A DNA stretch of 20,521 bases, from positions 1-20,521 of IMG/VR virus record IMGVR_UViG_3300032182_000712; one strand, given 5' to 3'. A model generated the notes under the pieces. It did no database searches. It had not been told where the DNA came from and saw nothing but the letters and a program-made list of their open reading frames with translations. The DNA is from a virus. The position numbers were made by a program, and so were the translations under genes. This document shows, in pieces, positions 3,424-20,521 of the stretch (positions are counted from its first letter, which is position 1; each line of letters begins with the position of its first letter).

Positions 3424-4164
3424 ATGGCTTCTCCCAAACCAAGAGTTGATAGGTCAGACATAGGTAGGTTAAAATCTTTATTTCAAAAACCGGCATTAAC
3501 TTCTTTCTTTCAGTGTTGGTTTTTACCTAATGGTCAAACACAGAATTGGATAAATGCGAGAGGTTTGCAAGTTTCTGATAGATTAGAAGAAATATCACTA
3601 CTTTGCCATGAGGCATCTTTGCCTGGGAATAGTCTAGCGACCAATGAAATAGTAAATGATTTTCATGGTGTAACTGAAAGACATGCTTATAGAAAACAAT
3701 TTGATGATAGAGCTGATTTTACTTTCTATGTAGATCATTATGGAACAGATAACGATGGGGATAGTCACAACATAATTTGGTTTTTTGAGAATTGGATTGA
3801 TTATGTTGTCCACGAGTCTTTAGATTTTGAAGTTGGTGATAGACCAACAACAGATAAAACTAATTATTTTTATAGATCTTCTTTTCCTGAAGATTATCAA
3901 GCAACAATATACATTAATAAATTTGAAAGGGATTATAGAGGAACATTTTTAGAATATGAATTTTTACAGGCATATCCGTTTGCAATAACATCAATGCCTG
4001 TTTCTTATGATACTTCTCAACTTTTAAAATGCACAGTATCGTTTCAATTTACTCGTTATGTAAAAAGGAGAAGATCTTACAGTATTGGGAAAGAAGGTAT
4101 TACAAATCCTAGTAAAAAATTCTTTAATTATATTCCTAACCTTGTTGAGTTTCCAGATAGTTAA
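3424..4164 (+). CDS. 54: gp54-like baseplate tail-tube initiator
   Basis: A 246-residue tube-fold-type protein that I assign to T4 gp54, which forms the layer next to gp48 and starts tube polymerisation. Visible features are an early DRLEEISLLCHEASLPGNSLAT segment (the loop typical of tube proteins, where a hydrophobic helix is followed by PG), RADFTFYVDHYGTD, an aromatic helix IIWFFENWIDYVV, and paired strands YQATIYINKFERD and YEFLQAYPFAITSMPVSYDTS ending LLKCTVSFQFTRYVKRR. T4 gp54 shows the same order: a helix with a tryptophan, a DIQVNLH-like strand, then CIPISVSAPELSYDGD. The gene is shorter than T4 gp54 (about 320 residues from memory). It diverges from gp4 and precedes gp26. The start is the first ATG; no Shine-Dalgarno is visible. 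It could instead be another tube-like baseplate protein. Confidence 0.6.
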   Translation: MASPKPRVDRSDIGRLKSLFQKPALTSFFQCWFLPNGQTQNWINARGLQVSDRLEEISLLCHEASLPGNSLATNEIVNDFHGVTERHAYRKQFDDRADFTFYVDHYGTDNDGDSHNIIWFFENWIDYVVHESLDFEVGDRPTTDKTNYFYRSSFPEDYQATIYINKFERDYRGTFLEYEFLQAYPFAITSMPVSYDTSQLLKCTVSFQFTRYVKRRRSYSIGKEGITNPSKKFFNYIPNLVEFPDS

Positions 4165-4213: not shown

Positions 4214-4936
4214 ATGCCTTTACCTAAGATTACTACTCCAACTTATGAGTTGGTTCTTCCTTCTACTGAACAAAAGATTAAATATAGACCATTTCTTGTT
4301 AGAGAAGAAAAACTTTTAGTTCTTGCAATGGAAACTGAGGATGTTAAAGAAATTACCACTGCAGTAAAACAAGTAATTAAAAATTGCATTGAGTCTCCTA
4401 AGAATATTAAAGTTGAACATCTTCCAACGTTTGATATTGAGTATTTGTTTTTAAATATTAGAGGAAAGTCTGTCGGAGAAGAGGTTGAAGTTAATGTTTA
4501 TTGTCCAGATGATGGTGAGACACAGGTTCCTGTAAAAATTCCAATTAGTGACATTGAAGTAGAAAAAAATTCAGAACATAATAAGCATATTAAAGTAGAT
4601 GATTCCATTACAATGGAAATGAAATACCCATCACTTGATCAGTTTATCAAGACTAATTTTGATATTGAGAAAGAAAATAATGTAGAGCAGTCTTTTGATT
4701 TGATTGCAGCATGTATTGATAAAGTGTATACTGAAGAAGAAGTCTGGGATTCTGCAGATTTAACTAAAAAAGATTTGGTTGACTTTTTAGACCAGATGAA
4801 TTCTGTTCAGTTTAAAGAAATTGAAAAGTTTTTCGAGACCATGCCAAAATTAAGGCATGAAGTAAAAATTACCAACCCCAAAACAAAAGTTAAAAGCACA
4901 GTATACTTGGAGGGACTGAATTCTTTTTTCGCATAG
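4214..4936 (+). CDS. 26: gp26 baseplate hub protein / tape-measure chaperone-like
   Basis: A 240-residue homologue of T4 gp26 (T4 baseplate family). The signature is the N-terminal block PTYELVLPSTEQKIKYRPFLVREEKLLVLAMETED followed by a helix ITTAVKQVIKNCI and LPTFDIEYLFLNIRGKSVG, which recurs across T4-like phages. The C-terminal third is helical and acidic (LVDFLDQMNSVQFKEIEKFFETMP). In T4 it is listed as a hub subunit, although position and family logic suggest an assembly chaperone. The final codons TCT TTT TTC GCA TAG contain an in-frame slippery heptamer, so a fraction of ribosomes may continue into the gp51 frame (see 4924-4930). The gene is preceded by a late promoter box; the Shine-Dalgarno is weak (AAGAG). 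gp51 starts two bases after its stop codon. Confidence 0.85.
   Translation: MPLPKITTPTYELVLPSTEQKIKYRPFLVREEKLLVLAMETEDVKEITTAVKQVIKNCIESPKNIKVEHLPTFDIEYLFLNIRGKSVGEEVEVNVYCPDDGETQVPVKIPISDIEVEKNSEHNKHIKVDDSITMEMKYPSLDQFIKTNFDIEKENNVEQSFDLIAACIDKVYTEEEVWDSADLTKKDLVDFLDQMNSVQFKEIEKFFETMPKLRHEVKITNPKTKVKSTVYLEGLNSFFA
4909..4914 (+). promoter_or_regulatory. Internal Shine-Dalgarno-like GGAGGG before slippery site
   Basis: GGAGGG lies inside the gp26 coding sequence. It ends nine bases before the slippery heptamer and 24 bases before the gp51 ATG. That is too far for ordinary gp51 initiation but close to the roughly 10-base spacing at which an internal Shine-Dalgarno sequence stimulates -1 frameshifting in E. 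coli dnaX. Function is inferred. Confidence 0.5.
4924..4930 (+). promoter_or_regulatory. Candidate -1 ribosomal frameshift site (T-TTT-TTC)
   Basis: The heptamer has the X-XXY-YYZ form and is in register: TTT (4925-4927) and TTC (4928-4930) are the zero-frame gp26 codons two and three before TAG. After a -1 slip the reading continues TTT TTT CGC ATA GCG ATG, with no stop, directly into the gp51 frame. The product would have 239 gp26 residues plus 65 more, about 304 in total. No obvious downstream stem-loop was found. Confidence 0.55.
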
Positions 4937-4938
4937 CG

Positions 4939-5127
4939 ATGTCTCATATGGATCTGGAAAATTATTATAGATTAAATTTTGCTTTAGTCCAGTTCCATAA
5001 ATATTCTTTAACGGAGATAGAAAATTTAATCCCGTGGGAAAGAGACATCTATGTTATGATGCTTGAAGAGCACCTTGAGGAGGAAGAGTTAAAGCGTAAG
5101 ACCGCAAACAAAAATGCCGGATTCTAG
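4939..5127 (+). CDS. 51: gp51-like baseplate hub assembly protein (possible frameshift extension of gp26)
   Basis: A 62-residue acidic, helical protein: DLENYYRLNFALVQFHKYSLTEIENLIPWERDIYVMMLEEHLEEEELKRK. The pattern (hydrophobic N-terminal helix, S-L-T-E-I, P-W-E-R-x-x-Y, charged end) matches short proteins annotated as gp51 in cyanomyoviruses and resembles the T part of tape-measure chaperones in other tailed phages. T4 gp51 is much longer as I recall, so the name rests on position and on marine-phage usage. The frame is -1 relative to gp26. The ATG lies two bases after the gp26 stop codon and has no Shine-Dalgarno at normal spacing, so expression may depend on coupling or on frameshifting. 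Its last 14 bases overlap the giant gene downstream. Confidence 0.6.
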   Translation: MSHMDLENYYRLNFALVQFHKYSLTEIENLIPWERDIYVMMLEEHLEEEELKRKTANKNAGF

Positions 5128-8100
5128 AGACCCAACAGTTCAATTAATAGATAAAGAGATTGTTGACTTGTTGGGTCTTCAAGATGAATATGAATTGTCT
5201 TGGGAAGATTATTATCGAGCATTGAGAGAAGCAGCAGTTGCTGCTAGAATGACAGACTCAAAATATTCTTCTGGAGAAACAGAAGTAATAACAGAAGAAT
5301 TAAAGAGAGTAAAATCGTTAGATACAAATACAAAATTTACTACTGTACAAGAGAAGAATGAAGAAATAAAAAAAATTGTAAATCCGGATAAAATAACTTC
5401 TATATCTAAATTTGTAAAAACTCAATCCAATAAGTCAAAAAATTATTCAAATTTCACACGTTCTTTAGCATTATCACAGTTAAAAAAATCTAAAGTATCG
5501 AGTTCTTCTCAAGAAAATTCTACTGAAGAATTTGTAGAGAAGAAAAATAGTGATGATAGTCCTTTATTGAGACCACTTTTAAGCATTGAAAAAACATTAG
5601 ATTCTATACTCGAAACATTACAAAATCAATTATCTTTTGATAAAGAAATTGCTAATGATGAAAGAAAATTAAGAGATCAGGAGAAAAAAAGAAGAAGAGA
5701 AAATAAATTAGAGAAAACTAAAAATGGATTTAAGGGAATATTATCTACTGCAGAGAAAGCAGTAAAACCGTTTGTTAGTATATTTGATAAAATAAAAAAC
5801 TTTTTATTATTTGTATTACTCGGAAAAGCATTTAAAATGTTTACGAATTGGTTTTCCGATCCAAATAATCAAAAAACATTTTATACTATTTTAGAATTTC
5901 TTGGTGATCATTGGATTGCTATATCTGGTGCATTACTTCTTTTCGGAACTGGATTGGGTGGTTTTGTTAGAGGTCTAATTGGAACTCTAGTGAAAATGTC
6001 TATTACAATGGGAAAGGTCATTGTAACAAGACTACTTCCATTATTGGGCAAACTTGGGTGGAAGGGGGGTGCCGCTCTTGCTGGTGCTGCATTGTTTACT
6101 GCTGGTGCGGTAGTTCCGGCAATGTTCCCAGGAACTACTGAGGATGATGCAGATAAGCAAGCAAATCAAGCAGCAAAAGAAAAGGGCAATAAGCAAGCAG
6201 CAGCAGACATTAGAGCACAAAATGAAAATAGAAATGTATTCCAGAAAGGTGCAGATTTTGTAACGGGTGCTGGGGCAGAGAGAGAAGAGCAAGCAACTAA
6301 ATTAGAAACTGGAGAAGAAAAAAGATATGGATTTAATCAAGGTGGTTTAGTTCCTGGAAGTGGTAATCAAGATACAGTTCCAGCAATGCTGACTCCTGGT
6401 GAGTTTGTTGTTAAAAAGGATAAAGTCAATGAAATAGGTGCTGATAATCTAGCAAAATTTAATAATGGTGGATATATTGAGGAAATTGAAAGACTTGTAG
6501 GAAATGATGAAAGGAATGCTCAAAGTGGTGGTAGATATGGAACTTCAGGATCTCCGGTAAGATATAAAGATGTAGATGGAAATGAGTTATTCACTGTTTC
6601 TGGTGATCCATCTGAAGAGCAAAGAAAATACATAGATGAAAAATTCAAAGGATTTAATGGACTTGGTGGAGGAATAACTAAAAAATCAAGACCTTCGAGA
6701 TCAATACCTAATACTTCTAAGCAAGAAAACTTTGATAAGTTATTAGATGGTGTTGATTTTATTAAAAAAGCAGCTGATTTTTCAAACAGCGATAGTTTCT
6801 TAGAAATTGAAAAAATATTAAAGTCAAAAGATAAAGAAAAGAAACAACTACAAGAATTTAATCTTGGTGATTTTTTAAGTTCTGGTATTGGTGGTATTGG
6901 TGCTGGACTAAAAAGTTTAATAACTCCAGAATTACTTGGTTCTGGTGTTGGTGTTGGTATTGGTGGTGCTTTAGGTGGACCCCTTGGTGCTCTTGCTGGT
7001 GGATTTTTAGGAGGTAAGGTTCCTGGATTGATTGAAATGATCCAATCGGGTATTTCCGGAGAAACAAAGGGAATTCCCGTTGCCGGAGATTTACAATCCG
7101 AAAGTAGTTCAAATTATTTGGTTGGCAATCTTCCATGGAATCCTAATACTAAATCTATAGATGAACTTCATCCAAATCAACAAGGTGCAGTTAAACTTAC
7201 GTCACAAATACAAGCAAAGACTGTTGATGAAGTAATTAAATATCATAATGAAAAAGCAAAGGCACTACAAAATACTTCTACAGCAGAAACGACAAGAACA
7301 CAACAAAAGCAAAGTGTCCCTACAACACCCATAACAAGTTCTGGTGTTGGTATTGGTGGTATTGGTGCTGGACTAAAAAGTTTAATAACTCCAGAATTAC
7401 TTGGTTCTGGTGTTGGTGTTGGTATTGGTGGTGCTTTAGGTGGACCCCTTGGTGCTCTTGCTGGTGGATTTTTAGGAGGTAAGGTTCCTGGATTGATTGA
7501 AATGATCCAATCGGGTATTTCCGGAGAAACAAAAGCAATTCCAGTTGCTGAAGACTTACAACCAGAAAGAAAATCATTATCCGAAAGCAGTTCAAATTAT
7601 TTGGTTGGTAATCTTCCATGGAATCCTAATACTAAATCTATAGATGAACTTCACCCAAATCAACAAGGTGCAGTTAAACTTACGGCACAGATGCAGGGAA
7701 AAACTGTTGATGAAGTAATTAAATATCATAATGAAAAAGCAAAGGCACTACAAAATACTTCCCCAGCAGGTAAGACAAGAACACAACAAAAACAAAGTGT
7801 CCCTACAACACCCATAACATATAGTCCAATTGTAACAAAAGATAATTTTGAGGATGTTGTGTATAGAAATAGACCACAAACTCTTTCTACAACACCACAA
7901 AAAATACAATCAGAATCAAAGGCAGTAGAAGTTTCTCCTACGAGTGTATCCCAACAGGAAAAACAAAAAAGTTCTGGGGGTAGTTTTCTTAAATCTGGTA
8001 TTGATCTTCTGACTGGCAAAACAGGTTTAAAAGACTACATAACACCAGAATTACTTGGTTCTGGTGTTGGTGTTGGTATTGGTGGTGCTTTAGGTGGACC

Positions 8101-10972
8101 CCTTGGTGCTCTTGCTGGTGGATTTTTAGGAGGTAAGATTCCTGGATTGATTGAAATGATTAATTCAATGGGATTAATTGATATGATTAAAGGATTATTT
8201 GGGAAGAAAAATAAAGTTCAAACAAAACCAATACAATCTAAAGAACCAGATTATTTGAAAGAAAGTGAAGAGGGATGGTCTGCTAAGAAAGAAAAGGTTC
8301 CAGCGGATTTTGAAGAACTAGCAAAACATGTTCCGGTTACACCAAGTAGATACGGATCTACAGAATCTCCAGTAAGATATAGAGACATAGATGGAAATGA
8401 GTTTACTCTTACTGGAGATCCAACAGAAGAACAAAGAAAAATTTTAGATGATTCTGCAAGACGTTTTTCAGAAACATTAGGTCAAAAACAGAAATTTAAT
8501 ATTGGTGGATTTGTTAGTAAGGTTGAGTCGGGCGAAGGACTCCCTATTACTGGCGCAGGAAAGGACGATACACTAGTAAATGCAAGAGTTGGGGATGCTG
8601 TTCTCACAAAAGAGGACCAAAATGTTTTATTAAAATTAATGTCAGGTGCTGGCATTGGTGGTCTTTTAGGTGGACCCCTTGGTGCTTTTGCCGGTGCGGG
8701 AATTGGTGCAGGAATAGGAAAACTTACTGGTGCTGGAGACACTACAACAATTGCTGTTCAAAAAGGTGAGGCAATTGTATCACCAGAACAACAACAAACA
8801 ATTTTTGATCAATTCGGTATTGATATTCCTGCTTGGTTATCCAGTAGAAAACCTCAAACGGTTGATTCCGATAAGATAAAAACAAAATCCGGTGTCGATG
8901 TTTTCAATCAAGGTGGAGTAGTTAAAGGATACTTCCTTGGTGGTATTGTTAAGGGTATTGGTAAAGCAGTAAGTGGAGTTACTAAAGCAATATCAAATCC
9001 AATAGGAACTGTAAGTAATCTTGTTGGTGGTGCTATTGGTGGTCCGTTTGGAAATGTTCTTAGCACTGTTGGAAATATTGCTGGTAACTTTATTAATCCA
9101 TTAGGTCCTGCAGCAGGTCTTCTTGGTGGAGTTGGTAATATTGCAGGAGGTATTGGAAATACCATTGGTAATATTGCAGGAGGTATTGGAAATACCATTG
9201 GTAATATTGCAGGTGGAATTGGAGATACCATTGGTAATATTACGGGCGGTATTAGTAATATTGCTGGTGGTGCATTAAGTTCTGTTGGAGGTGCAGCACT
9301 GAATACAGTTCTCCCTGGCATTGCTCCGATTACACAAATGCTCGGGTCCGGTTTAGTTGACAATATACCCGTAATATCACAAATAAAAGACACTGTTGGT
9401 AAATTAACTAAGAATCTTTTCATGCAAGGAAAAGATATACAAGAACAAAAGATTTTAAATTCCACTCAGGGGACACAGATAACACAGCAATCATTGAAGA
9501 ATACAATGCAAGATGGTGCTATCTCTGATTTGAGTCAGAAGATATCACAGATTGCTGGTTCTATTGGTGCTGCTGGTGGTGGTGGCGGTTCTCCAGGTGG
9601 TGGTGGCGGTTCTCCAGGTGGTGGTGGTGAAGGACAAGACAGTTCTGGTTTATTCGGTAAGATTGGCGATGGTGTTGATGGATTCTTAAGTGGTGCGAAA
9701 GAAACTATTGGTGGTATTCTTGGTGGTATTGGAGAAGGTTTAAAACTTGGTGGACAGGGAGTTCTTAAAGCACTTGAGTATAGTCCTATGGGACTAGCCG
9801 TAAAAGCGGGAAATGAAGGTCTTGGTCTTATTAAAAATATTATGAGTCAAGGTCAGGAAAAGAAAGTTTCTGATTCAACACAGACATCTAAACCTTCAGC
9901 ACAAGCAACAACAAGACATGCAGAGTTGATGCAGTCTACTAATCCCCAAAGGATTGCTGATTATGATGCTAAGCATGGTGCTGGATCATACTCTAAAAAA
10001 CTTCAGGAAAAACTGAATAAAACTTATTCATCGGAAGCACCACAACAACAATCACAACCACAGTCGGACATAGTTCCAACAGGTAAGGTAGTTGGTAGAA
10101 AAGATTTATCACCCAAAGCACAGGAAGCATTAGCACGATTAGATGCACAAAAAGCAGGTAAACTTCAACCAGATGTAAAAACTACTAAGAAAGGTGGATC
10201 ACCATTTGGTGGAATGTTATCTGGCATGATGGGTGGTCTTCTTGGATCAGGTCAAAAATCTATGACAGTAGTTGATGGTAACGTAGGTAAACCAACTGCA
10301 CAAGAACAAAAAGATATTGATAATCTTGCTGCGAAGAAGGCAAAACTGCAACAAAGTCAGCAAAAACTTATGAGTCTTAAAAGTAGAGATAAAAAATCTC
10401 TAGCAAAAATGGGATTCTCTCAAAAAGAAATTTCTCGTTATATTAATGAGGAAAAACAAATAGGAAAAACAGGAAATCTTCCTAAGGCTACATTCGAGAT
10501 GTTTGGGGGTGGAGGAAAAATAGATTTAAATAAACCTATGGGATCTGAGTTAAATTCAGGGATTGTTAAAGAAAATACTGGAGTGAATATTCCTGGAGGA
10601 ACTGCGGATAGGCAGTTGACCGCACTACAACCAGGAGAGATGGTAATTCCTCAAAACACTGTGCAAGCGGTTGGAGAAAATACATTCAATAAGATAATCG
10701 CTCGCTCTGATTCAAATTCCAATGCGTTTAAAATGGGTGAAAAGACAAAGATACTTGGAGAGAATATAAAACCATATCAAAATTCTTCTTCTGAAGGAAT
10801 GGGTGGTATGATAAAATTACCCCCAATAGAAGAAGGATCTAAACCAAAACCGGGTGAAAGTGGTGGAGATGGAAATGTTCCTTTAAATATTCCTGCTATT
10901 TGTGGTCATGGTGATGCATCGGTGGAGAGGAAAAGAATCCTCGATACTTTAGGATTTATTGTAAGTGTCTGA
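5114..10972 (+). CDS. Giant tape-measure-like tail protein (1952 aa)
   Basis: Probably the tape measure or a central tail-lumen protein; it directly follows gp26/gp51, where tape-measure genes sit after their chaperones. Residues 1-150 are charged and helical. Residues 154-243 form a module shared with the next giant protein: LLSIEKTLDSI, a long charged helix (RKLRDQEKKRRRENKLEK), then a hydrophobic FLLFVLLGKAF. Hydrophobic segments at about 266-334 could insert in a membrane. From 400 on, the protein is Gly-rich and repetitive: a GG..VPGSGN.DTVPAMLTPGEFV element (407-458), near-identical glycine-zipper blocks (602-643, 757-798, 976-1015, weaker near 1181), paired RYG..SPVRY elements (474 and 1079), an 11-residue GNIAGGIGNTI repeat, and a GGGGGSP linker. 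GE-V elements recur at about 1159, 1217 and 1839. The ATG overlaps gp51 and lacks a clear Shine-Dalgarno. Exact role is inferred. Confidence 0.65.
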   Translation: MPDSRDPTVQLIDKEIVDLLGLQDEYELSWEDYYRALREAAVAARMTDSKYSSGETEVITEELKRVKSLDTNTKFTTVQEKNEEIKKIVNPDKITSISKFVKTQSNKSKNYSNFTRSLALSQLKKSKVSSSSQENSTEEFVEKKNSDDSPLLRPLLSIEKTLDSILETLQNQLSFDKEIANDERKLRDQEKKRRRENKLEKTKNGFKGILSTAEKAVKPFVSIFDKIKNFLLFVLLGKAFKMFTNWFSDPNNQKTFYTILEFLGDHWIAISGALLLFGTGLGGFVRGLIGTLVKMSITMGKVIVTRLLPLLGKLGWKGGAALAGAALFTAGAVVPAMFPGTTEDDADKQANQAAKEKGNKQAAADIRAQNENRNVFQKGADFVTGAGAEREEQATKLETGEEKRYGFNQGGLVPGSGNQDTVPAMLTPGEFVVKKDKVNEIGADNLAKFNNGGYIEEIERLVGNDERNAQSGGRYGTSGSPVRYKDVDGNELFTVSGDPSEEQRKYIDEKFKGFNGLGGGITKKSRPSRSIPNTSKQENFDKLLDGVDFIKKAADFSNSDSFLEIEKILKSKDKEKKQLQEFNLGDFLSSGIGGIGAGLKSLITPELLGSGVGVGIGGALGGPLGALAGGFLGGKVPGLIEMIQSGISGETKGIPVAGDLQSESSSNYLVGNLPWNPNTKSIDELHPNQQGAVKLTSQIQAKTVDEVIKYHNEKAKALQNTSTAETTRTQQKQSVPTTPITSSGVGIGGIGAGLKSLITPELLGSGVGVGIGGALGGPLGALAGGFLGGKVPGLIEMIQSGISGETKAIPVAEDLQPERKSLSESSSNYLVGNLPWNPNTKSIDELHPNQQGAVKLTAQMQGKTVDEVIKYHNEKAKALQNTSPAGKTRTQQKQSVPTTPITYSPIVTKDNFEDVVYRNRPQTLSTTPQKIQSESKAVEVSPTSVSQQEKQKSSGGSFLKSGIDLLTGKTGLKDYITPELLGSGVGVGIGGALGGPLGALAGGFLGGKIPGLIEMINSMGLIDMIKGLFGKKNKVQTKPIQSKEPDYLKESEEGWSAKKEKVPADFEELAKHVPVTPSRYGSTESPVRYRDIDGNEFTLTGDPTEEQRKILDDSARRFSETLGQKQKFNIGGFVSKVESGEGLPITGAGKDDTLVNARVGDAVLTKEDQNVLLKLMSGAGIGGLLGGPLGAFAGAGIGAGIGKLTGAGDTTTIAVQKGEAIVSPEQQQTIFDQFGIDIPAWLSSRKPQTVDSDKIKTKSGVDVFNQGGVVKGYFLGGIVKGIGKAVSGVTKAISNPIGTVSNLVGGAIGGPFGNVLSTVGNIAGNFINPLGPAAGLLGGVGNIAGGIGNTIGNIAGGIGNTIGNIAGGIGDTIGNITGGISNIAGGALSSVGGAALNTVLPGIAPITQMLGSGLVDNIPVISQIKDTVGKLTKNLFMQGKDIQEQKILNSTQGTQITQQSLKNTMQDGAISDLSQKISQIAGSIGAAGGGGGSPGGGGGSPGGGGEGQDSSGLFGKIGDGVDGFLSGAKETIGGILGGIGEGLKLGGQGVLKALEYSPMGLAVKAGNEGLGLIKNIMSQGQEKKVSDSTQTSKPSAQATTRHAELMQSTNPQRIADYDAKHGAGSYSKKLQEKLNKTYSSEAPQQQSQPQSDIVPTGKVVGRKDLSPKAQEALARLDAQKAGKLQPDVKTTKKGGSPFGGMLSGMMGGLLGSGQKSMTVVDGNVGKPTAQEQKDIDNLAAKKAKLQQSQQKLMSLKSRDKKSLAKMGFSQKEISRYINEEKQIGKTGNLPKATFEMFGGGGKIDLNKPMGSELNSGIVKENTGVNIPGGTADRQLTALQPGEMVIPQNTVQAVGENTFNKIIARSDSNSNAFKMGEKTKILGENIKPYQNSSSEGMGGMIKLPPIEEGSKPKPGESGGDGNVPLNIPAICGHGDASVERKRILDTLGFIVSV
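6884..7336 (+). repeat. Long internal repeat, copy 1
   Basis: First of two nearly adjacent direct repeats within the giant tail gene. It encodes GIGAGLKSLITPELLGSG, a glycine-zipper block, then GLIEMIQSGISGETK, a variable stretch, and SSNYLVGNLPWNPNTKSIDELHPNQQGAVKL and a linker ending PTTPIT. The first ~185 bases are almost identical to copy 2. Confidence 0.9.
7349..7819 (+). repeat. Long internal repeat, copy 2
   Basis: Second copy, offset by 465 bases (155 codons) at its start and 483 bases at its end because of an 18-base in-frame insertion coding six residues (around PERKSL). The near-identity at DNA level, including synonymous positions, points to a recent duplication or ongoing gene conversion. 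Confidence 0.9.
8041..8160 (+). repeat. Long internal repeat, partial copy 3
   Basis: About 120 bases matching the start of copies 1 and 2 (TPELLGSGVGVGIGG through GLIEM) at an in-frame offset of 1119 bases from copy 1. Only the glycine-zipper block is retained; flanking sequence differs. A shorter related piece (GGLLGGPLGAF) occurs near 8655-8690. Confidence 0.85.
9134..9262 (+). repeat. 33-base tandem repeat in giant tail gene
   Basis: Three 33-base units (9134-9166, 9167-9199, 9200-9232) and a degenerate partial fourth encode GNIAGGIGNTI repeated. Units 1 and 2 are identical in DNA. The result is a regular small-residue/isoleucine stretch. Confidence 0.9.
9574..9630 (+). repeat. Gly-rich linker repeat (21-base unit)
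   Basis: Two 21-base units coding GGGGGSP, followed by GGGGEG. This looks like a flexible linker between the repetitive body and the next Gly-rich segment of the tape-measure-like protein. Confidence 0.8.
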
Positions 10973-17719: not shown

Positions 17720-20521
17720 ATGTCAGAAAGTTTTTACAACAATCAAACGAAAGGCATACAAGTTCAATACATGTGGTTTGGTCAAGTTGTTGACGAATCA
17801 ACATGGGTAGAAAATAATGCCAGGGAAGATGGAACACATAGTTTGAGAGACCGTGACGACTTTCAAGGATATGGTTATAGAGCGAAAGTAAGAATATTTG
17901 GTAGGGAATTAGAAGATAAAACAAGTGAAAACACAACAAAGGATGAAGAGTTATATATGGCAGAGGTTGCTCTACCAGTAACTGCGGGAAGTGGTCACGG
18001 TGGTTTAACACAAACTCCATCATTAACTCAGGGTAATTATGTTTTTGGATTTTATAAAGATGGAATAGAAGGAACTGAACCAATTGTTTTTGGAATCTTA
18101 CCAAACCACGCTCAAACCAGATTGTTTGGAAATGATCCGGAAAAAGGATTTTTTTCCAGAACAGGATACCAAGGAAAAAGAGGTAATGAAACTGCTTGGA
18201 ATAAAAATGTTTTGGGGCAAGGACCTGATAGTGGAGTCCCCACAAATGAATCTGCAGGATTAAATTACGTTTTAGATGTAAGAGATATAGATGTATTAAA
18301 AGAGCAAAGAACTCATTATCTACCAAAGACGTATGATTGTGATATTAAATCTGGAGGTGCATTAACTTCAATACAAAAAATAATAAAGGATGTTCAGGCA
18401 ACAATTAATAAAATAAAAGCTGCCGCAAATTCATTTGCTGGTGTTGTTTCTGATGTTTTAGATGGTGTAAATTCTTTAATAGAGGATGCTGCTTTACTCA
18501 TAGCAGATCTCATGAAAGGTATAATTGATAAAATGAGAGGATTTGCCGAAAATTTACTTAACAAAGGATTAAATTTAATTATTGGACTTCTTCCTCCTGA
18601 TATTACTGGAGCAAATAATGAGATAGCTCAACTTGTTTTGGATGTTTTAGCATGTCTTTTTAATAAAATAATCTCTCAGTTATTTCAAAGTGTATTGGGT
18701 CAATTAAAAAGCGCACTTAGTAATAGCTTATCAACTCCCTTGTGTGCTGTAGAAAATTTTATGGGAGGTCTTTTAGGTGGTATATTGGGTCCTTTAGCGG
18801 ATACGTTGTCTTCAATTGGTGATTTACTTGGATCCGTTGTCGATGGAATTTCTGGAATTATGAGTGGCATATTTAGTGCTCTCGACACTATATTGGGTGT
18901 TATTTCTTTTTTAACTTGCGACGAAGATGCAGATTGTTCCGCTGGAGATGGGTGGAGTTTTTGGTATGGAGACGCAGCAGATTCAGTAGAAATTCCTGAG
19001 TTATCTAATATTATACAAACAAACGCATTTTCCGGAGGAGAAGGAGGAGGTGGTGGTTTCTGCGACTCTGGTCCAACATTAGCAAAACCACCAAGAGTTA
19101 AATTTAAAGGTGGTGGTGGAACTGGAGCAATTGCTAATCCGATTATTACGCCAGATGGTAGGATTATTGCAATTGATGTGATAGATGGGGGAACTGGATA
19201 TACATCAAATCCTCAAGTAGTTTTAAATCCAGACGATGGTCCAGGAAGTGGAGTTGTTCTTTATCCTGTTTTGGAAAGTGATAATTCATTTTTAGGTGGT
19301 ACTGGAGGAGAAGCAAGTGGAAATCCTTCAAACAAAGACGACATTTCTACTGTAACACAGGGTATTCCAGGAGCACTTAACTTTACTGTAACTAATGTTC
19401 CATTAACAATTAATTCTGAATCAACTCTCCCTACTTTTGAAGTCAATCCAGTAACTGCTCCAGGACAATCTGTTCCACCTGGAAATGGTGAAACCTTAAT
19501 CGTTTCAAGTGAACCAATAAAAGTGGGAGCAACTGGAGGTATACCTATTCGAGTAGATTTTACAGGAAATCCGGTAACAGTTACAGGAAATACAATTAAA
19601 ATAAAAGATGGAAGATCATTAGTTGTTGGAAATAATGGAAATGTTAATGCCCCACAAGTAATTACAAATGCGGGTCCAATGACTCTTGGTGGCGATGGAG
19701 GTAAGGAGGTTAAAATTGGTGGAAAAAATGGAACTAATTTATTCATCCCATCAGGTAACATAATTACAGGAAGTATTCTTACCTTTACAGATAATGGGGT
19801 AGCAGATTCTTCTAGAATTCCAAATGCGACTGGATATACTGTCACCAATCCTGCATCATCCATTAATGGAAGTGGATCTGAATTTCTAGTGGTTGTTGAA
19901 AATGATGGAACTCCTAAAATAAGTTTAGTCTCTGGAGGTTTTAACTACATAGGGGGTGGAGTTGAAACTGTTAGAATTAGTGATGTTTTCTTGGGTAACG
20001 GTGGTGCTTCTGACATTATTGTTACAGTTCAAACTGTCGGAACACCAAATATTAATACTAAAATTCCGATAGAAGCTCAAGTTGACTCAGCAATTTTTCA
20101 AAGTGACGCTCGGTTCTTAAAAGGTCCATTTCCTGGGACCTTTGAAGGAAAAGGAACATATGAAAATAATAAATTTAAAGGAGAGGGACTTTTAACAGGT
20201 AAAGATGATAAAGACGAAGAGTTTACCTTAGGTGGTAATTTTAGTGGATTTAATTCTTCATTAAATGGAAGTGGATCCGGAACTTTTAAAGGAGAGGGTA
20301 TTGTAAAAAATAATAGATTTATTGGTCAGGGTAAATTTACACCCGACAAACCCACAAATTTAAGTTTTTCAGAAACTGATGGAACCGAAACTGGAACTGA
20401 CGGATCTGGAACTGTCGGAACTGGAACTGACGGATCTGGAACTGTCGGGACTGGAACTATCGGGACTGGAACCGAAACTGGAACTGACGGATCTGGAACT
20501 GTCGGAACTGGAACTGTCGGA
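17720..20521 (+). CDS. 5: gp5-like central spike protein without visible lysozyme, 3'-truncated by window
   Basis: The frame is open from ATG 17720 to the window end (934 residues, no stop). Residues ~8-135 resemble the gp5 OB-fold that docks to the hub: IQVQYMWFGQVVDESTW, YRAKVRIFGRE, MAEVALPVTAGSGHGG and GNYVFGFYKDGIEGTEPIVFGILPNH. In T4 a lysozyme domain follows; here residues ~215-400 are hydrophobic, amphipathic helices (SLIEDAALLIADLMKGII, LLGGILGPLADTLSSIGDLLG) with no lysozyme E..D..T pattern. Next come Gly-rich beta repeats (GGGGTGAIANPIITPDGRI, GGTGYTSNPQVVL; 441-520), a long Ser/Thr/Asn-rich beta-type region, MORN-like elements (GTFEGKGTYENNKFKGEG, ~807-873), and a GTDGSGTVGT tandem repeat reaching the edge. 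It starts seven bases after the CP12-like gene without a Shine-Dalgarno. The tip and C-terminus lie outside the window. Confidence 0.75.
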   Translation, partial: MSESFYNNQTKGIQVQYMWFGQVVDESTWVENNAREDGTHSLRDRDDFQGYGYRAKVRIFGRELEDKTSENTTKDEELYMAEVALPVTAGSGHGGLTQTPSLTQGNYVFGFYKDGIEGTEPIVFGILPNHAQTRLFGNDPEKGFFSRTGYQGKRGNETAWNKNVLGQGPDSGVPTNESAGLNYVLDVRDIDVLKEQRTHYLPKTYDCDIKSGGALTSIQKIIKDVQATINKIKAAANSFAGVVSDVLDGVNSLIEDAALLIADLMKGIIDKMRGFAENLLNKGLNLIIGLLPPDITGANNEIAQLVLDVLACLFNKIISQLFQSVLGQLKSALSNSLSTPLCAVENFMGGLLGGILGPLADTLSSIGDLLGSVVDGISGIMSGIFSALDTILGVISFLTCDEDADCSAGDGWSFWYGDAADSVEIPELSNIIQTNAFSGGEGGGGGFCDSGPTLAKPPRVKFKGGGGTGAIANPIITPDGRIIAIDVIDGGTGYTSNPQVVLNPDDGPGSGVVLYPVLESDNSFLGGTGGEASGNPSNKDDISTVTQGIPGALNFTVTNVPLTINSESTLPTFEVNPVTAPGQSVPPGNGETLIVSSEPIKVGATGGIPIRVDFTGNPVTVTGNTIKIKDGRSLVVGNNGNVNAPQVITNAGPMTLGGDGGKEVKIGGKNGTNLFIPSGNIITGSILTFTDNGVADSSRIPNATGYTVTNPASSINGSGSEFLVVVENDGTPKISLVSGGFNYIGGGVETVRISDVFLGNGGASDIIVTVQTVGTPNINTKIPIEAQVDSAIFQSDARFLKGPFPGTFEGKGTYENNKFKGEGLLTGKDDKDEEFTLGGNFSGFNSSLNGSGSGTFKGEGIVKNNRFIGQGKFTPDKPTNLSFSETDGTETGTDGSGTVGTGTDGSGTVGTGTIGTGTETGTDGSGTVGTGTVG
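20373..20521 (+). repeat. Tandem Gly-Thr repeat running off the window end
   Basis: Irregular repetition of a 30-base unit (GGAACTGACGGATCTGGAAC plus TGTCGGAACT, coding GTDGSGTVGT) mixed with a 12-base GGAACTGTCGGA-type unit. The reading frame is kept throughout. The full length cannot be known from this window. Confidence 0.85.

Follow-up and report, generated by a model that had tools for sequence, protein, structure and literature searches.

Comparative evidence makes it very probable that, in a 20,521-base IMG/VR virus fragment from a T4-like marine phage (the whole stretch of DNA analyzed here, hereafter the window), a -1 programmed ribosomal frameshift in gp26 yields short and long tail assembly chaperones of the lambda G/GT type, and the "gp51" that follows appears to be the tail end of gp26, not a separate gene, in the window and in nearly all relatives examined. 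Reading the frames directly from the sequence, gp26, the short form of the putative chaperone, occupies 4214-4936 (+ strand) and encodes 240 aa that match PF12322 (Pfam T4_baseplate, E=1.4e-75) and phrog_150. Its final codons are TTG GAG GGA CTG AAT TCT TTT TTC GCA TAG, in which the slippery heptamer T_TTT_TTC (4924-4930, +) lies in the exact X_XXY_YYZ register of gp26, as a preliminary description of this DNA had stated, and three bases (GCA) separate it from the zero-frame TAG that ends the short form (4934-4936, +). From the heptamer the -1 frame reads TTT TTT CGC ATA GCG ATG... and is open until a stop at 5125-5127. That this frame is the one of gp51, open through CGC ATA GCG to its ATG, had also been described, and the reading holds: the extension (4930-5127, +; 65 codons plus stop), which is matched by the C-terminus of T4 gp51, corresponds to "gp51" as usually annotated (4939-5127, +; 62 aa; phrog_634, E=1.1e-26) with the conserved leader RIAMSH, giving FF-R-I-A-M-S-H-M-D... 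across the junction. The Shine-Dalgarno-like GGAGGG (4909-4914, +), a likely stimulator, is located 9 nt before the heptamer (10 nt counted from GGAGG) and 24 nt before the gp51 ATG (4939), at the distances first reported, and the virtual gp26-gp51 fusion, initially estimated at about 304 residues, comprises exactly 304 aa.

As we infer its occurrence and efficiency, slippage would involve a minority of ribosomes. Most would end at TAG 4934, releasing the 240-aa gp26, and the remainder, aided by the Shine-Dalgarno-like GGAGGG, would move back by one base on T_TTT_TTC, with tRNA-Phe occupying both the P and the A site, and translate the -1 frame to produce the 304-aa gp26-gp51 protein with the junction ...EGLNSFF-RIAMSHMD.... 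The short and long forms may then act like lambda G and GT, loading the tape measure protein and bringing in tail tube subunits. T4 and its closest relatives encode the same long protein directly in a second gene (gp51), with the frameshift unneeded. The gp51 ATG of the window probably codes for a Met within the extension. The predicted fusion would contain the junction peptide STVYLEGLNSFFR (tryptic; also IAMSHMDLENYYR), and free gp51 would begin MSHMDLENYYR.

The conservation of the slip site was analyzed in 225 non-redundant loci, obtained from IMG/VR relatives, named phages and further scans, and in 89 representatives below 80% identity. In the window and its 80 closest IMG/VR relatives TTTTTTC followed by one codon and TAG was found in 81/81 cases, and T_TTT_TTN is kept in register in 223 of the 225 loci (TTTTTTC in 159, TTTTTTA in 42, TTTTTTT in 21 and TTTTTTG in 1). 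In all of these 223 the zero-frame stop lies 0, 3 or 6 nt past the heptamer and the -1 frame runs beyond it, with an extension of 58-69 residues from the heptamer in those loci where its end is inside the contig. The heptamer is present in P-SSM2, P-SSM4, S-SM2 and other Kyanoviridae, in the Vibrio phages ValKK3 (Straboviridae), K571 and V05, and in Melnitz (Methylophilales), Sinorhizobium phiM12, Agrobacterium OLIVR5, Stenotrophomonas Moby and Aeromonas G2, including phages in which gp26 is only 23-35% identical to that of the window (ValKK3, phiM12, OLIVR5, Moby and G2). The alignment proposed in the preliminary description as a check on the site bears out the proposal, as nearby synonymous sites vary while conservation extends to the heptamer and its register, to the purine block before it and to the open -1 frame.

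The capacity of gp51 to start on its own bears on the possibility that it is a separate gene, translated after termination at TAG 4934 by reinitiation at ATG 4939. This is an improbable reading of the region overall, even if the ATG stands 2 nt past the gp26 stop in the window and in many relatives. In 65 of the 223 loci, some with frames that end early at the contig edge, ATG, GTG and TTG are absent from the first 16 codons of the -1 frame, as they are in 29 of the 89 representatives, and an upstream start codon in the -1 frame was found in 0/223 loci. With no start codon in these 16 codons or upstream, independent expression of gp51 is hardly possible in those 65 loci, and these start-less frames rule out independent initiation as a general rule. 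In addition, the stretch from the heptamer to the usual ATG is conserved at the amino acid level (R/I/A/L/S/H), and the Shine-Dalgarno pairing before the gp51 ATG is poor, with a mean of -1.6 kcal/mol in the loci that have an ATG (gp26 starts average -3.9). The gp51 frame of the window does hold an ATG, and no Shine-Dalgarno was found before it (duplex energy +1.9). Reinitiation would also leave unexplained the invariant heptamer and the fused form of T4 gp51. Nevertheless, some reinitiation at the ATG of the window could produce free gp51 alongside the fusion.

The reinitiation reading finds further support in Vibrio phages. T_TTT_TTN was not found in VAP7, K469 and K351, and in the first two a gp51-like ORF begins at a TAATG overlap, after GTT TTT CGC TAA TG in VAP7 (L091, gp26 end at 3744 of the locus) and CTT TTT GCG TAA TG in K469 (L090, gp26 end at 3723); K351 shows CTT TTC AAG TAA TGGTGG (L280, gp26 end at 2717). 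A GTTTTT motif has been proposed as a slip signal in other phage families (PMC12846349), and these three phages may use reinitiation or a different slip. Regarding annotation, public records give late gp51 starts in S-RSM4, Melnitz, OLIVR5 and P-HM2, and gp51 is left out in those of S-MbCM6 and Aeromonas G2. At the loci concerned (L094 3697-3881, L085 3694-3893, L096 and L088) gp51 of P-HM2 and Melnitz begins well past the conserved region and S-MbCM6 and Aeromonas G2 omit it. A record joining the gp26 and gp51 ORFs was not found among the phage records examined.

Two types of potential stimulatory elements flank the heptamer. An AGG-containing Shine-Dalgarno-like core (GGAGG, GAGG or AAGG) is located 9-10 nt upstream in 86/89 representatives, and the pairing of this block with the anti-Shine-Dalgarno is stronger than in synonymous shuffles (-6.61 vs -5.34 kcal/mol, z=-8.5), evidencing an apparent selection on the block beyond the protein code. 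Similarly, RNA structure in the 45 nt after the heptamer exceeds that of shuffles synonymous in the -1 frame (mean z -1.98), and seven control windows gave z values of -0.03 to -0.49 in the same test, suggesting that downstream RNA structure is under selection across the family. A single covarying hairpin common to the family was considered and held in part only, as the hairpins are clade-specific and covariation is modest in the TTTTTTA clade. Part of this clade carries GGGCTCTC-ACAT-GAGAGCCT, with 8 double-change cells vs a shuffle mean of 2.3, and the P-HM2 clade carries GCCCTC-6 nt-GAGGGC, a near-constant 6-bp stem in which no covariation was detected. The downstream RNA of the window itself is barely more stable than its shuffles (z=-0.18), and therefore the Shine-Dalgarno-like element is the main candidate stimulator there. 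In Escherichia coli dnaX a Shine-Dalgarno-like element also precedes the heptamer by about 10 nt; dnaX differs in its A_AAA_AAG site and in its strong 3' stem-loop, the 3' structure of the window being weak.

Slippage of the RNA polymerase on the T run, yielding mixed transcripts instead of a ribosomal slip, is very unlikely. The run of six or seven T's at the site would be compatible with it; however, six T's are short for polymerase slippage, which needs no fixed codon phase, yet the X_XXY_YYZ phase is observed in 223/223 loci, and both the seemingly optimized Shine-Dalgarno-like block and the downstream structure would be left unexplained.

Codon usage within gp26 points to the slip site itself. 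Among 104 comparable gp26 columns of the 89 representatives only the two slippery codons have T at the third position in 100% of the sequences (89/89), the runner-up column reaching 92% and the median 53%. An independence estimate for the heptamer in these representatives is ~1e-32, a value that is overstated since the sequences share ancestry. Conservation of the heptamer is far beyond chance, and these columns and estimates rule out chance or codon bias as its origin. TTTTTTC encodes Phe-Phe and TTTTTTA, found in one marine clade, encodes Phe-Leu, as does TTTTTTG; the Phe-Leu forms keep the T run, and therefore conservation concerns the slip site and not the Phe-Phe peptide. The idea that the heptamer merely results from a Phe-Phe end conserved in gp26 together with AT-rich codon choice, gp51 being irrelevant, can be dismissed almost entirely: T4 gp26 likewise ends near GLKEFF and TTT makes up 70% of the Phe codons in these T-rich genes, but TTTTTTA or TTTTTTG changes the residue and keeps the slip site in 43 loci, which refutes the peptide as the cause, and the invariant third positions argue against codon choice.

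Independent support for the fusion as a protein comes from T4, in which genes 26 and 51 are on opposite strands, an arrangement that precludes frameshifting from one to the other. Over its full length T4 gp51 aligns with the entire virtual fusion of the window (hhalign, 4e-18) and the extension alone with T4 gp51 residues 200-246 (7e-7), reversed or column-shuffled controls giving 0.14-0.55; gp26 of the window aligns with T4 gp26 at 1.9e-21. T4 gp51 holds a full T4_baseplate domain (PF12322, E=1.8e-53), and PF12322 genes number two in the T4 genome and one in each of six frameshift-type genomes; the window, a fragment, shows one gp26. By these alignments T4 gp51 is a gp26-like domain with the same extension, the fusion being encoded there as a second gene. 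As T4 gp51 is homologous to the fusion, the latter is a real protein form in nature, and we infer that the same long form is made in the window by a slip instead of a second gene. T4-type gp51 occurs in phages of Escherichia, Klebsiella, Acinetobacter and Aeromonas, among others. The match of phrog_150 columns 240-281 to gp51 was considered as a trace of naturally fused cyanophage entries, and T4 gp51-type members are the simpler explanation. It can be speculated, with rather less confidence than doubt, that the -1 slip is ancestral in T4-like phages and was retained in almost all cyanophages as well as in many further lineages, that the T4 lineage duplicated gp26 and hard-wired the fusion as gene 51, and that the cyanophage "gp51" annotations are artefacts of an arrangement unreported for these phages.

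The preliminary description had suggested that gp26/gp51 is a G/GT-like device, a proposal that gains support from the comparative tests, from gp51 frames that lack a start and from the fact that the fusion and T4 gp51 are homologous. As in lambda G/GT (Xu, Hendrix & Duda 2004; Atkins et al. 2016, PMC5009743), a -1 slip close to where a small chaperone gene ends would generate short and extended forms, the small -1 frame needs no start of its own and, as in lambda and its counterparts in other long-tailed phages, the region appears to adjoin the upstream side of a tape-measure-like gene. The systems differ in the heptamer (GGGAAAG in lambda, U_UUU_UUN here) and in that no sequence similarity was seen between gp26 and the lambda protein. 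The T4 pair shares with the window a gp26 that corresponds to the short form and a gp51 that aligns with the fusion, and differs in having two full genes where the window has one gene and a predicted frameshift. The chaperone gene of phage Adele (Vandenendeviridae/Andersonviridae; PMC12846349) likewise has a -1 slip at a T-rich 3' end, and the ORF that follows is wrongly annotated as a gene in its own right; it differs in its GTTTTT motif and belongs to other phage families.

The statement that such a device was not known to be reported for gp26/gp51 was probably too strong. According to the papers that cite them, Vladimirov, Gautam & Davidson (2022; Virology 566:9-15) identified chaperone genes of T4-like phages; PMC10885494 credits them with the observation that some T4-like phages have a short chaperone gene and a longer fused gene with no frameshift, and PMC12846349, citing the same study, describes poly-T sites in the chaperone genes of T4-like phages as known signals for a -1 shift. 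To the extent conveyed by these citations, frameshifting in T4-like phages is probably not entirely new: systems of this kind are known, and part of the T4-like case may already be in print. The present analysis contributes the deep comparison of loci, the gp51 frames that lack a start, the TTTTTTA clade and the tests on stimulators. The annotation of a core tail gene would be corrected in hundreds of marine phage genomes, and T4, which relies on two genes, and its marine relatives, which apparently use a slip of the ribosome, offer a clean pair for the question of the short:long chaperone ratio. T4 is named in a review as an exception to the G/GT-type frameshift rule (PMC5009743), a statement on which cyanophages that seemingly obey the rule have a bearing.

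Homology and gene arrangement suggest a chaperone role for gp26 and the fusion. An AF2 model of gp26 has a mean pLDDT of 86, and in a Foldseek search of the PDB the HK97 chaperone 2ob9 was among the best matches by probability (0.41-0.60) with E above 1; the matches are not significant, and proof of a chaperone fold through PDB structures was discarded. The start of a large tape-measure-like ORF (5114-10972, +) overlaps the end of gp51, and its profile matches, labeled as tail length tape measure, are weak (phrog_58, E=3e-9; phrog_37649, E=2e-7); the next ORF also matches phrog_58. The ORF directly upstream of gp26 (3424-4164) matches tail tube families (PF23849, E=3e-10; phrog_45, E=4e-28), and several related records give the corresponding gene no annotation beyond hypothetical. 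The translation of ORF 5114-10972 contains three near-identical copies of a module, LGSGVGVGIGGALGGPLGALAGGFLGGK..., and two similar antisense ORFs are located within this ORF (6858-7136 and 7320-7619). Finally, repeats of the GTGTDGSGTVGTG type were observed at 20326-20521, in an ORF that begins at 17720 and runs off the end of the window.
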